NCBI GenBank assembly: GCA_013540605.1
Contig: JABVCK010000003.1
Location: 62,001-126,000, forward strand
From: Bacillota bacterium
GTDB lineage: Bacteria; Bacillota; Clostridia; Ch29
Direction: 5' to 3'
DNA: 64,000 bases
In this document: piece by piece, positions 56,155 through 63,778 of the stretch
Layout: the number at the start of each line of letters is the position of its first letter
Position numbering within the stretch: the stretch's first letter is position 1
Made by a program: the position numbers and the translations under genes
The notes under the pieces: model-generated
The model's database searches: none
Seen by the model: the letters and a program-made list of their open reading frames with translations, nothing else
What the model was told of the DNA's origin: nothing

Positions 56155-57243
56155 TTACTCCAGGAGTTGAAAGACAAGCGTATTGTTAATCTCTGCCTGC
56201 TCCCGCAGTTTTCCTATTCTTTCGTCCAGACACATGCGGATAGTCTCCCTGTTGTTCCAAACCCTTTGTACTTCTATCAGCATATCGCTGAGCTCAACAT
56301 CATCGATTTTCCCTACAGGTTTCATCCCTATTTGAGCCAGAAACCCATCGATTTTCGGGTCATACGACACGCCTATAAGGGGCACGCCCTGTATGGCGGA
56401 AAATATCAATGAATGCAGCCTTACGCCTATCATAAGATCCAATTCACCAACAAGGTCCAGAAGTTCCTTTACTTTAAACCTCTGGTCAACCGAGTATGCG
56501 CCGTTCTTCATGATTGACTTTATCCTCTCAATACAGTCGTTATCCTCCCCATAGTGGAAAGGTATAAACACAACCTGGAACCCCAACTCTTCTATAAGAT
56601 TATCGGCGGTTTTCGCTATTATATGGTTGAACTTCTCTGAATCCTTCCATTCCCTGACCGAGAACCCCACAACCGGCTTATCAGTATCTATGCCGATAGC
56701 TTTCAAAACTTCCGACCCCGTGCCGGTACCGGTTGGCCTCAAGGCTACAACCGGGTCGGCCGTCAGGTGTATTGGAGGTATCTCCACACCCATATTCTTT
56801 AAATCCTTCAGCGACTGCTCATCTCTCACTGTTATTGCGTCAACGGTATTCAATATGTTCCGGGTAAGCCTCCTGTTGCTTTTTTTGGTAATGGGCCCTA
56901 TGCCCTGCCCATAGACCATGACCTTTTTCCTCAGCCGCTTTGCTATGTATATCAACCCCAGATAATACCTTATGCTCTTTTCGCTGGTGATATCCTGGAG
57001 GAGGCCCCCGCCTCCGCTAATAAACAGGTCACAATTCTTTATTGCCATATATATTTCAAAAAAATTCTTCCTGTCCACCGCATTTATGCCATGCCTCGCC
57101 TCCGTAAACGGAGGGTTGGCCGACAGGACAGTAATATCCACACCTTTGCTGACAGAGTTTAAACTATCGACGATCGACGTCAGGATAGACTCATCCCCGA
57201 CATTCCCAAAACCGTAGTACCCGGATATCAATATCCTATACAT
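56155..57243 (-). CDS. csaB: Polysaccharide pyruvyl transferase CsaB
   Basis: CsaB (362 residues) adds pyruvate ketals to wall polysaccharide, creating the binding site for SLH-domain proteins. It shows ILISGYYGFGNVGDESIL at the N-terminus, FISGGGGLLQD near residue 78, MVYGQGIGPI near 112 and the GVRLHSLIFSAIQGVPLIGVSYDPKI motif near 265. ATG 57243 lies 7 bases after GGAGG and overlaps the DUF5693 gene end by 8 bases; the frame to 57279 is less likely. The SLH protease at 14263 is a plausible client. Confidence 0.93.
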   Translation of the reverse strand: MYRILISGYYGFGNVGDESILTSIVDSLNSVSKGVDITVLSANPPFTEARHGINAVDRKNFFEIYMAIKNCDLFISGGGGLLQDITSEKSIRYYLGLIYIAKRLRKKVMVYGQGIGPITKKSNRRLTRNILNTVDAITVRDEQSLKDLKNMGVEIPPIHLTADPVVALRPTGTGTGSEVLKAIGIDTDKPVVGFSVREWKDSEKFNHIIAKTADNLIEELGFQVVFIPFHYGEDNDCIERIKSIMKNGAYSVDQRFKVKELLDLVGELDLMIGVRLHSLIFSAIQGVPLIGVSYDPKIDGFLAQIGMKPVGKIDDVELSDMLIEVQRVWNNRETIRMCLDERIGKLREQAEINNTLVFQLLE

Positions 57244-59260
57244 CCTTTGTCCTCCTACGGGCATTATATATATGGACAACCATCCACAAGAATATTATTC
57301 CGATAATTCCCAAAACAATTCCGATAGCCAGTCCGTAGGCGGTCCTATATGCTGACATGTACAGCGGTGTTCTGAGATGGCTGAAGCTGTTGACCATGGA
57401 TATCTGTCCTATTGCGCCGGCAAGACCCAGGGGAAGAATTATAGACTTGTATTTTTTCAATACCCCTGCAATCATCAAGATCATTGCCGGGTGCGCAACA
57501 AGAAATTCCTTGGTCCTCGGGCGCGCGACCAGAGCCTGCTCCAAAAGTGTTCTTATCTTGACCTCAAGCCCAAAAATTGGCGCTCCGGCAGTATGGCCTG
57601 TCCTGCCAAGATACAAATACCCACCCACCGCTATTATGCCAATCAGTAAAACATACTTAACGGTAATCGGCACATCCAGCAGCGCCTTTATTTCTTTCCA
57701 TATGCTTCCGAACTCATCCCTGCGGTAGCCTATAATTATAAAATACGCTATCACGAATACCGCAAGGGGAATAATATGGGCGATCTTAACCCCCCTAAAA
57801 ACATCCAGCTCCAGGAGATATGCGGTTGAACTCAGCATTGACGCAACGAAGGCCGCTCCAATAAGCGAAATGCCGGAGGCTTTAAGGAGTTCCGCTACGC
57901 TTGCCTTAACAATCCTTGCCAACCCCGCTTCCCCGGTCTGCTCTTCTATTATACGCCTGCAGAGCTGCAATATATAAATCATGGCCAGGGACGGGAACAC
58001 GATTGCGGCTCCCAGAGCAAAAGCCTTATCCGCGAGGGAAGGCATTACATGCAGCATAGCCTGTCCCAGTACCATTCCTACAGCAAACAGGCCGTACAAG
58101 TATGACTTCCTGATCCTGAACATATTATCAAGGAGAAGCAGCGCTCCGGCAATCACCCCGGCCAGTAAAACCAGCATCCTTGTTCTGCCGATATTGAAAT
58201 CTTTCATCGGCACCACTCTGCCAATAACAAATCCCCTGTTCTGTATAACCTCAACAAACTGCTTTATATAGAAAAGATTGGTTTCAAAATTTTCTGCAGG
58301 ACTCATAAACTTTTCCTCTTTGGGGTTAAGATATACGAGCCTGAGATTCCTTTCATCCACAGCCCTGAACCATCTATCCATAACCTCCTTGAAGGATACC
58401 TTGTTCGCCTCCGCTTCGTTCAGGCTGAATACCCTGACGGCTTTATAGTCAGCGAGTTCAATCAAGGAGTTCAGCCCCTTTTGCTCAATGTGCATAAGCT
58501 GTGTCCATGTCTCGATGGGGCCTATGACAATGCCTGTTTCTTTGACCATATTTGCAGTAACCTCTAAATTGTACGGATACCCTAACACCTGTACTCCGTT
58601 AAAAATGACAGAAGTAACAGGATACTCTCGAAACTTCTCAAAGAGAGACCGTATATAGTCAGGGGTCATTTCCATGTAATTAGAAGGGCGTACAGAGATA
58701 TTAAGCCCGAGGTTTTTTGCCTGTTCAAATTTACTGAAATCAAAGCCCAGGGTAAAATCCTCAAGGTCTTCATATCTGCCCGAAAAGGTCAGAACATATG
58801 CACCATCCTTCGACCAGTCTTTGAAGCCGGCCGCCCTGTTCTTTAAAGGTTCCTTTATCCATTCATAGTCCTCGGCGTTATTTGGTATTACTACCACAGT
58901 ACCGGACGGGTCCAGATTTGAATCCATGACCTCTCTAATAACCGGCTCAAGGCTGCCCGTTATCGTATTCTTTTCACTGAGCTCCCACAGGTTCACGATG
59001 GTAATGCGGCCGGATTTTTTTATCTCTTCAAGGCTCTCTTCCTTGATAGCCACAGTTGTTACACCGGCATCCTTAAGGTTCTTCAAGACCTTCTCCATAT
59101 CCATGCCCATGTCATGGCCAAGTTTTTTGTACTTGCCGTAGTCCGCAACCAGTTCTACTTTGTTATACGGCCTTTCGGCATCGGCTCTTTGGTAGATCGT
59201 GAACAGCGATACGGAAAGGGACAATATTAATATGAATAAAATTGGTTTATTCAGTTTCAT
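57236..59260 (-). CDS. DUF5693-family membrane protein
   Basis: The 674-residue protein has an N-terminal signal-anchor, an extracellular alpha/beta domain (~30-340, including GVTTVAIKEESLEEIKKSGR and PVTSVIFNGVQVLGYP) and about eight to nine membrane helices in the C-terminal half. This layout and its position just before csaB match the DUF5693 family of Firmicutes, whose function is unknown but is tied to wall-polymer or S-layer anchoring by synteny. It starts the operon DUF5693-csaB-wecG-methyltransferase-transketolase. Confidence 0.82.
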   Translation of the reverse strand: MKLNKPILFILILSLSVSLFTIYQRADAERPYNKVELVADYGKYKKLGHDMGMDMEKVLKNLKDAGVTTVAIKEESLEEIKKSGRITIVNLWELSEKNTITGSLEPVIREVMDSNLDPSGTVVVIPNNAEDYEWIKEPLKNRAAGFKDWSKDGAYVLTFSGRYEDLEDFTLGFDFSKFEQAKNLGLNISVRPSNYMEMTPDYIRSLFEKFREYPVTSVIFNGVQVLGYPYNLEVTANMVKETGIVIGPIETWTQLMHIEQKGLNSLIELADYKAVRVFSLNEAEANKVSFKEVMDRWFRAVDERNLRLVYLNPKEEKFMSPAENFETNLFYIKQFVEVIQNRGFVIGRVVPMKDFNIGRTRMLVLLAGVIAGALLLLDNMFRIRKSYLYGLFAVGMVLGQAMLHVMPSLADKAFALGAAIVFPSLAMIYILQLCRRIIEEQTGEAGLARIVKASVAELLKASGISLIGAAFVASMLSSTAYLLELDVFRGVKIAHIIPLAVFVIAYFIIIGYRRDEFGSIWKEIKALLDVPITVKYVLLIGIIAVGGYLYLGRTGHTAGAPIFGLEVKIRTLLEQALVARPRTKEFLVAHPAMILMIAGVLKKYKSIILPLGLAGAIGQISMVNSFSHLRTPLYMSAYRTAYGLAIGIVLGIIGIIFLWMVVHIYNARRRTKDV

Positions 59261-60056: not shown

Positions 60057-60150
60057 AATATAGTTGATTCTATGCTTAGCCAAAAATTCCTGTCGTCTCA
60101 TGTAAATTATTTTGCAATGCAGCTATTTCCTGGGCAATATTGTCACATAA

Positions 60151-60191
60151 TAACGATAAAGGCCACAGGGTTTCTGTGGCCTTTATCGTTA
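60151..60191 (-). terminator. Perfect 18-bp hairpin at the sulfur-fusion gene end
   Basis: Arms 60151-60168 and 60174-60191 are exact reverse complements with a 5-base loop. The stop codon of the gene lies in the hairpin, as at 1572-1615. The right arm on the minus strand ends CCTTTATCGTTA followed by TTATG, a weak U-tail. Confidence 0.75.
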
Positions 60192-62663
60192 TATAAACAG
60201 GTTCACGTTTGATTTTTCAGCCTCGCCCAGGTAGGCCGCTACTCCTCCTACCTCAATGCCGTCAATCAATTCTTCTATCTTTATTCCCATAACATCCATC
60301 GACATATTGCATGCCATTAGCTTTACCCCGCTCTGCCTCGCCTGTACAATCAGCTGTTCAAGCGATGAAATGCCTTTGTCCTTCATTACCTTCCTTATCA
60401 GCTTTGGCCCTATTCCCGCCATATTCATCCTGGACAGCCCCAGCTTTCTGCTGCCCCTTGGCATCATCATCCCGAACATCCTATCCATAAATCCCTTTTG
60501 TGCATTCACATACCGGTCTTTTCTCAGTATATTCAAGCCCCAGAATGTGAAGAACATTGTCACCTTTCTGCCCATTGAAGCGGCGCCGTTTGCGATTACA
60601 AAGGATGCGATCGCCTTATCCAGATCCCCGCTGAAGACCACTATAGTCTTTGAATCCGCGTTTTCAGGAACCGCGCAGGCTCCGGAAACCCTGTCCGACT
60701 CGGTGCAGCCTTTCCTGATATGAGCATAAAAGCTTTTCTCATCTTTCCCGCACTCCAGCAGCGTATTGCCGGTACTGTCGCACCATTGCTTTATATCGTT
60801 TACAAAGCCCGGATCGGTTGCAAGAACCTCCAGTACCTCGCCATCCTCTAACTCCTGTATGGATTTATACACCTGCATTATTGGACCGGGGCAGGACAGC
60901 CCGCACGCGTTAAGCCTGACCCTTCTTGCCTCATCAGCTTTTTGCATGCCGCTGTTTCCCCCTGCTCCGTTCCGGACTGAACCCTTTTCGTCATAACCCT
61001 GGTCATTCAGCTTTCTTTCGGACTGCTTAACCGCGTTGTACAGTTTGAAACCTCCGCTCAGGTTTTTGACGTCCCTGAAGCCCTTCTGGACTAAAATCCT
61101 GCATGCAATGTATGCCCTAAGTCCAATCTGGCAATACACAACAATGCCTTTGTCCTTCGGGAGCTCGTGCAGCCTTTCCCTTAACCTGCTTAAGGGGATG
61201 TGAACGGATCCCTCAATATATCCCATATCTCTTTCTTCCTTGTCCCTTATATCAAGGATAACCGTATTATTCCTGTCCAGGCCGTCAATCTCATCCCAGA
61301 ATATCACATCCGTATCACCCTTCAGGAAATTGGCAGCGGCATATCCGGCCATGTTGACGGGGTCCTTGGCAGAAGAATAGGGCGGGGCATACGCTAGCTC
61401 CAATTCTTCCAGGTCATGCACGGATTTCCCGAACCTCACGGCAGTTGCAATCACGTCTATCCTCTTATCGACCCCTTCGTACCCCACTATCTGCGCTCCG
61501 AGTATCTTTCCTTCCGGAGTATACAAGAGCTTAACGTTCATCGGAAATGCTCCGGGGTAGTATCCTGCATGGGAGTTTGATTCTGTATAGGTTTTCCTGT
61601 ATTGCACGCCCGCTCTTTTAAGCATTTTCTCATTGCTCCCGGTCGAAGCAACGGTTAGGTCGAACACCTTTACGATAGATGTTCCCTGCGTTCCTTTGTA
61701 CTCCTCCGTTCTTCCGCAAATATTGTTGGCGGCAATCCTTCCCTGTTTATTTGCAGGCCCTGCCAGTGGAATAAGCGTGCTGGCCCCGCTGATAAAATCG
61801 GATACTTCTATTGCGTCCCCAACAGCATAGATGTCCGGGTCAGAGGTCTGGAGATATGAGTTTACTAATATGCCTCCCCTTTCGCCTATATCGAGACCGG
61901 CTTCCTTTGCAAGTCTCACGTCCGGCTTCACCCCGATCGCCAGGACTATAATATCGGCCGGAACTCTCCTACCGCTCTGCAGCACCACAAATGTCCTTTC
62001 CCCGTCTTCTTCGAAAGCCTTTACGCCGTCTTTCAGGAGCAGTGTTATACCCTTATCCATAAGATGGCCGTGTACAATTGAGGCCATTTCATAATCTACC
62101 GGTGTCATCACCTGGTCCGCCATTTCCACAATTGTAACCCCGATACCCCTTTCGTGCAGGTTCTCTGCCATCTCAAGCCCTATAAAACCGCCTCCTACCA
62201 CCACAGCGGTTTTTGGCTGCTCCTCATCCACAGCCTTTTTGATCTTATCTGTGTCAGGAATGTTTCTCAGAATATATATGCTTTTTGATTCGATTCCCGG
62301 AATAGGGGGCTTTAATGGCATTGCACCCGGAGAGAGAATGAGCTTGTCGTAGGTCTCATCATACTCGGCTCCGGTCACAGTATTCTTCACCCTTACCTTT
62401 TTTGCCTCCCTGTCAATACTCTGTACCGCGCTGTTCACCCTGACGTCTATATTAAACCTTTCTTTCATCTTCTCCGGTGTCTGCACAAGCAAAGCGTCCC
62501 TTTGTTCAATGGCTCCTCCAATATAGTAAGGAAGTCCGCAATTAGCAAAGGATATATGCTCACCCTTTTCAAACATTATAATTTCCGCTTCTTCACTTAT
62601 TCTTCTCAACCTGGCTGCTGCACTGGCGCCGCCTGCGACACCTCCAACAATCAGAACCTTCAT
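60189..62663 (-). CDS. CoA-disulfide reductase-rhodanese-TusA-DsrE2 fusion
   Basis: The 824-residue protein joins four sulfur-handling units. Residues ~1-440 are a CoA-disulfide reductase-type flavoprotein (FAD loop GGVAGGASAAARLRR; active-site cysteine in SFANCGLPYYIGG). Residues ~460-555 are a rhodanese domain (persulfide cysteine in VVYCQIGLRAY). Residues ~585-660 are a TusA/SirA domain (NACGLSCPGPIMQVYKSI), and ~675-824 a DsrE2-like domain (VFSGDLDKAIASFVIANGAASMG; cysteine in KLMACNMSMDVMG). It probably reduces or relays persulfide or polysulfide. ATG 62663 has GGAGG 8 bases upstream. It has its own regulated promoter. Confidence 0.9.
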   Translation of the reverse strand: MKVLIVGGVAGGASAAARLRRISEEAEIIMFEKGEHISFANCGLPYYIGGAIEQRDALLVQTPEKMKERFNIDVRVNSAVQSIDREAKKVRVKNTVTGAEYDETYDKLILSPGAMPLKPPIPGIESKSIYILRNIPDTDKIKKAVDEEQPKTAVVVGGGFIGLEMAENLHERGIGVTIVEMADQVMTPVDYEMASIVHGHLMDKGITLLLKDGVKAFEEDGERTFVVLQSGRRVPADIIVLAIGVKPDVRLAKEAGLDIGERGGILVNSYLQTSDPDIYAVGDAIEVSDFISGASTLIPLAGPANKQGRIAANNICGRTEEYKGTQGTSIVKVFDLTVASTGSNEKMLKRAGVQYRKTYTESNSHAGYYPGAFPMNVKLLYTPEGKILGAQIVGYEGVDKRIDVIATAVRFGKSVHDLEELELAYAPPYSSAKDPVNMAGYAAANFLKGDTDVIFWDEIDGLDRNNTVILDIRDKEERDMGYIEGSVHIPLSRLRERLHELPKDKGIVVYCQIGLRAYIACRILVQKGFRDVKNLSGGFKLYNAVKQSERKLNDQGYDEKGSVRNGAGGNSGMQKADEARRVRLNACGLSCPGPIMQVYKSIQELEDGEVLEVLATDPGFVNDIKQWCDSTGNTLLECGKDEKSFYAHIRKGCTESDRVSGACAVPENADSKTIVVFSGDLDKAIASFVIANGAASMGRKVTMFFTFWGLNILRKDRYVNAQKGFMDRMFGMMMPRGSRKLGLSRMNMAGIGPKLIRKVMKDKGISSLEQLIVQARQSGVKLMACNMSMDVMGIKIEELIDGIEVGGVAAYLGEAEKSNVNLFI

Positions 62664-62687
62664 ACTAATACCTCCCGTCATTATCCC

Positions 62688-62702
62688 ACCCCCTATGGGG
62701 AG
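62688..62702. promoter_or_regulatory. CsoR/CstR-type operator
   Basis: ACCCCCTATGGGGAG, with TAT between C4 and G4 tracts, has the A/T-flanked G/C-tract form used by CsoR/RcnR/CstR-family repressors. It lies just after the expected transcription start of the sulfur-fusion gene, whose upstream neighbour encodes such a repressor. Confidence 0.7.
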
Positions 62703-62715
62703 GGGCTGTATGTTA

Positions 62716-62744
62716 ATTATATAACAGGGCCATACATAAATCAA
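62716..62744 (-). promoter_or_regulatory. Promoter of the sulfur-fusion gene
   Basis: On the minus strand TTGATT (62739-62744) and TATAAT (62716-62721) are 17 bases apart. The start falls near 62709, directly before the operator-like palindrome. Confidence 0.85.
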
Positions 62745-62761
62745 CCCTGTTTCCAATCAAA

Positions 62762-63031
62762 TTATTTCATAAATTTAATAATTGTAGCGACTATTTTTTC
62801 CAGCTTTTCCCTTGAACTATCGTCCTTCATATCCTCAAAAAGACAATCCACAGTATGCTCTTCCAGTATCATAAGCCCTGTCTTTTCTATTGATGACCGG
62901 ACTGCAGCAATCTGGAGCAATACTTCCTCGCAGCTCTTCCCTTCTTCCAGCATTTTTTCTATACCGCTTATATGGCCCTTTATTGTCTTAAGCCTGTTAA
63001 GAACCTCACTTTTTACTAAATCCTTTGACAT
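62762..63031 (-). CDS. CsoR/CstR-family (DUF156) repressor
   Basis: The 89-residue, all-helical protein belongs to the CsoR/RcnR/FrmR/CstR family (NRLKTIKGHISGIEKMLEEGKSCEEVLLQIAAVRSSI). Potential sensing residues are Cys34, His59 and Cys63 (H-x3-C), the set used for Cu(I) by CsoR; persulfide-sensing CstR normally keeps the two cysteines without that histidine. Context points the other way, since the adjacent target encodes persulfide enzymes. It therefore could sense copper, persulfide or both. The operator lies between it and its target. Confidence 0.9.
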   Translation of the reverse strand: MSKDLVKSEVLNRLKTIKGHISGIEKMLEEGKSCEEVLLQIAAVRSSIEKTGLMILEEHTVDCLFEDMKDDSSREKLEKIVATIIKFMK

Positions 63032-63112: not shown

Positions 63113-63135
63113 AGCTCAGGTCAGAACCTGAAGCT
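63113..63135 (-). terminator. Terminator after mazEF
   Basis: AGCTTCAGGT and ACCTGAGCT form a stem with one bulge. On the minus strand TTTTATTTTT follows. Confidence 0.8.
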
Positions 63136-63141
63136 GAATCT

Positions 63142-63501
63142 CTAGAAATCTATAAGTCCAAAGCTGATTTTTAACGCTTCATTAACCTTATCCATCATAT
63201 CATCGTCAAAATGCCCTATCTTTTCACGAAGACGCCGTTTGTCTATAGTCCTAACCTGCTCAAGAAGAACGACAGAATCCTTGTTAAGACCATATTCGGC
63301 AGCATTAATTTCTATGTGGGTTGGTAGTTTTGCCTTGTTAATCTGGGAAGTAATAGCAGAAACGATGGTTGTGGGACTGTATTTATTGCCTACATCGTTT
63401 TGTATTACTAATACCGGGCGCACGCCGCCCTGCTCCGAGCCTATTACAGGGCTTAGATCAGCATAGAATATATCTCCCCTTCTTATTTGCACATCATTCA
63501 C
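63142..63501 (-). CDS. MazF/NdoA endoribonuclease toxin
   Basis: The 119-residue toxin is a PemK/MazF-fold mRNA interferase. It has [31 protein letters not shown] at the N-terminus with the catalytic arginine in GGVRPVLV near residue 28, the [10 protein letters not shown] strand near 45 with the catalytic threonine/serine, and [14 protein letters not shown] near 79. Homologues in Bacillus cut UACAU. It overlaps its antitoxin gene by 8 bases and is followed by a terminator. Length and motifs are standard, so it is probably active. Confidence 0.95.
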
Positions 63502-63778
63502 CCTCCGCTAGCTTGCCCTCATAGCTGCCAAAGGAAAGAGTGTCTTCGATTAAGCTGTGTTCCGCCAAAGCAAGATTGAGATTCGCCATTTCTATATATC
63601 CTTTTTTTAGCTGTTCTCTTATCTCCATCTTTTTTCTTTCCCTTATATATAGCTTCATAGCCTCCCTTATGAATTCGCTTCTATTCTTCTTTTCAAGGCC
63701 TACTACAGCATCAACTTCCTTCAACAAGCTGTCCGGCAGGCTAACGATTATCCTCTTCGATTCTGCCACCTCAGGCAC
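63494..63778 (-). CDS. MazE/EndoAI-type ribbon-helix-helix antitoxin
   Basis: The 94-residue protein has an N-terminal ribbon-helix-helix ([38 protein letters not shown]) that binds DNA and forms dimers, and a C-terminal tail that blocks the toxin. It belongs to the EndoAI group of MazF antitoxins in Firmicutes. It is the first gene of the pair, after a strong promoter, and downstream of alanine racemase, the classic order. Confidence 0.93.

Follow-up and report, generated by a model that had tools for sequence, protein, structure and literature searches.

The window, by which we mean the whole 64,000-nucleotide stretch of DNA that was analyzed, carries a csoR-like repressor gene and, next to it on the same strand, a gene for a four-domain sulfur enzyme. 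The features of the locus are listed below, with the basis of each in brackets.

60150–60192, strand not assigned: perfect 19-bp inverted repeat with a 5-base loop over the fusion stop codon, a probable terminator (sequence)
60189–62663, minus strand: CoADR-rhodanese-TusA-DsrE2 fusion gene, 824 aa from the ATG at 62663 (Pfam, solved homologues, catalytic cysteines)
62683–62707, minus strand: predicted bipartite C/G-tract operator (kept in every one of the five family genomes that have the gene)
62716–62744, minus strand: fusion promoter, TTGATT (62744–62739), 17 bases, TATAAT (62721–62716) (conserved in five family genomes)
62723–62749, minus strand: inverted repeat CAGGG-N15-CCCTG around the −35 (exact matches; conserved in relatives)
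62762–63031, minus strand: csoR-like gene for a DUF156 repressor of 89 aa (PF02583; alignment to solved CsoR, InrS and CstR chains)
63115–63132, minus strand: terminator-like hairpin between mazF and csoR (sequence prediction)
63142–63501, minus strand: mazF-like gene (Pfam; synteny)
63494–63778, minus strand: ribbon-helix-helix antitoxin gene (Pfam; synteny)

Elsewhere in the window, at 57236–59260, a large DUF5693 membrane protein is encoded beside polysaccharide pyruvyl transferase-like and WecG/TagA-like glycosyltransferase-like genes, in an order conserved across the family.

The Pfam profiles for Pyr_redox_2 and its dimerisation domain, rhodanese, TusA and DsrE_2 all match the fusion above their cut-offs, and every domain has kept the expected cysteine (C42, C511, C591 within CPxP, and C785). 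The sequence-only reading of this DNA, which had placed CoA-disulfide reductase, rhodanese, TusA and DsrE2 in one chain, was thus correct. The list of open reading frames gave an 855-aa version beginning at a TTG upstream of the promoter; we rejected this start, as the promoter and operator would then fall inside the reading frame, and placed the true start at the ATG at 62663, since that codon and the promoter–operator are conserved in relatives. The ATG lies 98 bases from csoR, and with its own promoter and operator in the gap and the 19-bp inverted repeat at its end, the fusion looks like a single-gene transcript. Homologues were found in Clostridia, Bacilli, Bacteroidales and Spirochaetes. 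The same four domains form one chain in BF638R_0572 of Bacteroides fragilis, which, unlike the window fusion, has no DUF156 repressor and is under the MarR-type regulator BmoR, rising 50-fold in its absence (PMC6158253). CoAPR and Npsr (CoADR-rhodanese) share the first two domains and the catalytic cysteine pair (C42/C508 in CoAPR, C42/C511 in the window) but lack TusA and DsrE2; a two-domain form of this kind occurs under the same operator in two family genomes, G001 and G002.

The promoter proposed from the letters alone, TTGATT-17-TATAAT, stands, being conserved in five family genomes. The C4-TAT-G4 palindrome taken for the operator, CCCCTATGGGG at 62690–62700 on the plus strand, is likewise present and conserved, but it forms only the central part of a longer, bipartite operator, AGCCCCTCCCCATAGGGGGTGGGAT, which runs from 62707 to 62683 on the minus strand and begins about nine bases downstream of the −10. 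When all six family genomes were searched with the bipartite pattern, noncoding matches lay solely at promoters of the fusion or its two-domain form. We rejected a chance occurrence because the operator is found in all five genomes with the gene and every other match falls inside coding sequence. Looser searches returned mostly coding or unrelated sites, together with the copA promoters of G002 and G003. The CAGGG-N15-CCCTG repeat is present at the fusion promoter in the window, G001, G002, G004 and G005; in G001 both arms have changed together, to CAGAG/CTCTG. A second regulator may bind it. A wider role for it was rejected, as its exact matches are confined to fusion promoters.

As the C/G palindrome falls at the 5′ end of the transcript, is able to pair and drew a terminator-like call on the plus strand, it might act as an RNA hairpin and not as an operator. 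We regard this as extremely unlikely: the sites remain runs of C and of G with no switch to A–U pairs, the loops and bulges differ in size, the sites occur together with csoR, and the palindrome has no match in Rfam.

The family comparison covered six genomes, the whole of the order in the set used. An orthologue of csoR is present in each, 71–75% identical and always behind alr-mazEF, the mazF-like and ribbon-helix-helix antitoxin genes being constantly upstream and, in the window, separated from csoR by the terminator-like hairpin. No bipartite operator of the fusion type was found upstream of csoR itself. The fusion adjoins csoR in two of the six genomes; the full fusion in G005 and the two-domain forms in G001 and G002 lie away from it, and G003 keeps csoR near alr-mazEF with no fusion detected. 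The same promoter and bipartite operator nevertheless precede the fusion or the two-domain form in five of the five genomes with the gene, including the three where csoR is elsewhere. This conservation bears out the earlier pairing of repressor and fusion, and judged from the sequences the link is real.

Of the three DUF156 proteins of the source genome, one is a CsoR immediately upstream of CopA and another is unlinked, and the fusion operator could in principle be read by one of these two while the adjacent csoR controls something else. The csoR without a detected fusion in G003 and the separation of the two genes in three relatives would fit such an arrangement. Against it, the copA operators (TATACCCC-N3-GGGGTATA or CATACCCTACAGGAGTATAG) are built differently from the fusion operator, csoR adjoins the fusion in two genera as well as in Fusibacter-like operons, and the window type falls in one clade with fusion-linked repressors (below); we consider this alternative quite improbable. 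In G003 (L027, L242), copA carries the TATACCCC-N3-GGGGTATA operator.

Beyond the family, we retrieved 80 fusion-encoding loci from a named collection. In seven of these, from Fusibacter and similar clostridia, csoR lies at most 200 bases downstream of the fusion, a glutaredoxin gene stands before the fusion, and a C4-6/G4-6 site is found still farther upstream, just behind the −10 of the operon, placed similarly to the window operator. With Exiguobacterium excluded, an operator-like site was present in the upstream kilobase of 9 of 10 loci with csoR vs. 2 of 55 without, the loci being related and not independent. Exiguobacterium has a YrkD-like csoR near the fusion and G-tract sites of another form. 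In several other clostridia (L132–L136 and L192; Pfam checked for L135), an ArsR-family gene lies directly upstream of the fusion in the place of csoR, and the same enzyme therefore appears under different regulator families. One fusion-linked csoR (L158, 10454–10711) has lost the second cysteine (NYAKEA), with an operator-like CCCCCCCATATAAGGG before its fusion; this may represent either one-cysteine sensing or decay.

The window repressor matches PF02583 at E = 1.2e-24 (86.9 bits against a cut-off of 22.8) and has the conserved cysteine at position X (C34), which places it in the DUF156 (CsoR/RcnR) family. In the published fingerprint of this family, W-X-Y-Z-(A-B-C) (PMC4235346, PMC7055735), the second-shell residues Tyr35 (A) and Glu81 (B) of Mycobacterium tuberculosis (Mtb) CsoR form hydrogen bonds to the copper-binding His and link the binding of copper to release from DNA. 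We read positions A/XYZ/B from one alignment for all compared sets. Residues C34, H59 and C63 of the window repressor align with C36, H61 and C65 of Mtb CsoR; the Cys-His-Cys copper set named earlier is thus present, as in the Cu(I)-sensing CsoRs of M. tuberculosis and Geobacillus, which also have a similar C/G-tract operator. Unlike them, the window repressor lacks the second-shell Tyr and Glu, having Ser33 and Lys79 (S/CHC/K), and lacks linkage to a copper pump: it accompanies the sulfur fusion, while copA has a CsoR of its own.

All 13 CopA-linked CsoRs, 12 clostridial and the genome's own, are Y/CHC/E, in a sample that was drawn from best hits and may favor canonical forms, with loci that are not independent. 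In the six orthologues of the window type, A is S or T, the ligands are CHC, and B is K, R, S or G, with His59 retained in all six. Among 22 fusion-linked homologues elsewhere, none has Tyr at A, and position Y is His in 5, Gln in 2, Tyr in 2 and Asn in 13; the Gln forms (L140, Fusibacter tunisiensis, and L142) still have the operator. As most Fusibacter-like forms have Glu at B, only position A separates the copper-linked from the fusion-linked sets. For the tree, columns A, Y, Z and B were left out; it uses 71 columns, and several of its branches are long. In it, clostridial fusion-linked forms and the window type make up one group (22 rows, SH-aLRT 96), 12 of the 13 copper-linked forms make up another (SH-aLRT 95), and the window type tentatively falls in a different supported group from CstR, SpCstR itself being a long branch. 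On this tree, position Y must have changed four or more times within the fusion-linked forms and their orthologues. Copper regulation by association was rejected, as no CopA homologue or other metal pump was found in the flanks of any fusion-linked csoR.

These comparisons bear on what the repressor senses. That a Cys-His-Cys set may go with another metal is known from InrS, which shares these ligands and the absence of Tyr at A with the window repressor but controls nickel efflux, has an N-terminal His (W), and falls on a different branch; it senses Ni, and the fingerprint was extended to positions A-B-C (PMC7055735, PMC4235346). The window repressor might likewise be a plain sensor of copper (or of Ni or Zn) whose target happens to be a sulfur enzyme, for example where metal stress disturbs thiol pools. 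Its ligands would suit such a role, and two Cys-His-Cys homologues that group with InrS (L077 and L080; Pro or Ala at A, Lys at B) have a P-type ATPase with roughly 40% identity to CopA close by and are themselves possibly nickel, cobalt or zinc sensors, so that residues alone do not exclude another metal. We nevertheless find a plain metal sensor very unlikely, given that fusion-linked csoR loci lack a metal pump, that the target is sulfur-related throughout the clade, and that the ligand His is lost in several members and one Cys in L158. Nor do His59 homologues all regulate copper pumps: seven His59-type repressors, including that of the window, accompany the sulfur fusion, at loci where no copper ATPase was found. 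A further clostridial DUF156 group (L067–L075, L079, L083, L090 and others) has Cys-Tyr-Cys at X-Y-Z, often with Cys at A, and commonly lies near hisS-aspS, thioredoxin and glyA genes.

The sequence-only reading had suggested a repressor answering to both copper and persulfide, which would leave DNA on Cu(I) binding at C34′-H59-C63 and on persulfidation of the same cysteines. The complete X-Y-Z set, kept in six of six family orthologues, and the resemblance of the operator to that of Mtb CsoR, given as GTAGCCCACCCCCAGTGGGGTGGATAC in PMC10318464, speak for it. We nevertheless judge a dual sensor unlikely and do not uphold the suggestion: DUF156 operators are G-tract based regardless of effector, the second-shell Tyr and Glu are absent, the genome has a dedicated CsoR at copA, and sulfur-linked homologues have replaced His59 by Gln, Tyr or Asn. 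Also improbable in our view is a clostridial DUF156 clade parallel to CstR in which a full Cu(I) site is wired to persulfide chemistry involving those very residues, so that the protein reports both signals or copper directly tunes persulfide sensing. As for the other suggestion, that ligand rules are incomplete, Cys-His-Cys alone indeed does not mean copper, but this was already known from InrS (PMC7055735, PMC4235346). Going by the residues and contexts compared, copper is probably not the signal of the repressor.

The nearest counterparts in function are CstR and YrkD of Staphylococcus, Enterococcus and Bacillus, which share with the window repressor the DUF156 fold, two cysteines 29 residues apart (C34 and C63 here, at X and Z and able to bridge subunits), and, as predictions here, a G/C-tract operator and control of persulfide-handling genes (CoA-persulfide reductase, rhodanese, TusA and DsrE). 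They appear to lie on a different branch of the tree; the window repressor has a bipartite operator and a single fusion gene as target; SpCstR and the YrkD-like forms of Exiguobacterium have Asn in place of His59. CoAPR, the CoA-persulfide reductase equivalent to the first two domains of the fusion, is under CstR control in E. faecalis (PMC9405070). YrkD, a CstR homologue that elemental sulfur frees from DNA, governs a cluster that includes dsrE, tusA and rhodanese genes (PMC9918477). TTHA1953 of Thermus thermophilus is similarly a thiol-controlled DUF156 repressor of sulfur genes whose targets lie away from its own gene; unlike the window repressor it controls Sox genes, and its lack of response to NaHS in vitro (PMC10318464) counts against the explanation that we favor.

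We consider it likely that the window repressor is a persulfide- or polysulfide-responsive DUF156 repressor that acts in the manner of CstR, belongs to a separate, mostly clostridial clade, and has inherited a His59 that is not essential. The anatomy of the locus, the conservation of the operator, the clade and the variability of the ligands are read from sequence; the effector, the disulfide chemistry and the flow of sulfur we infer. In the reduced state, the repressor would sit on the bipartite C/G operator behind the −10 and block transcription of the fusion. Persulfide would join C34 to C63′ of the neighboring subunit as a di- or trisulfide, and the repressor would leave the DNA and allow the CoADR-rhodanese-TusA-DsrE2 protein to be made. 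The enzyme may then take up sulfane sulfur via its rhodanese, TusA and DsrE2 cysteines and reduce CoA-persulfide to CoA and H2S, clearing sulfane sulfur. His59 would be the remnant of an inherited metal site, at which binding of Cu(I) in vitro may persist. Weighing against this explanation are the csoR without a detectable fusion in G003, the retention of His59 in all six family orthologues, and the Glu at B in most Fusibacter-like forms.

Parts of this picture are already known: the four-domain fusion (BF638R_0572), DUF156 proteins controlling sulfur genes (CstR, YrkD and TTHA1953), and a Cys-His-Cys set that is not diagnostic (InrS). New here are a clostridial DUF156 clade that appears distinct from both copper CsoR and CstR, its operator, and the swapping of regulators at the fusion gene; we found no paper on a clostridial, sulfur-linked Cys-His-Cys CsoR clade with a bipartite operator in a literature search that excluded the main CstR survey (Fakhoury 2021, PMC8643695). 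DUF156 repressors are often named copper-sensing from Cys-His-Cys, and in the sets compared this rule mislabels the sulfur-tied clostridial clade. The Tyr immediately preceding the first Cys tells every CopA-linked protein compared from every fusion-linked one, whereas the His does not. As the second shell of Tyr and Glu is missing, we predict that copper may bind the window repressor but should not switch it. At the level of the enzyme, bacteria differ in the regulator that stands beside or above this one sulfur fusion, which may be of the DUF156, ArsR-family or MarR kind.
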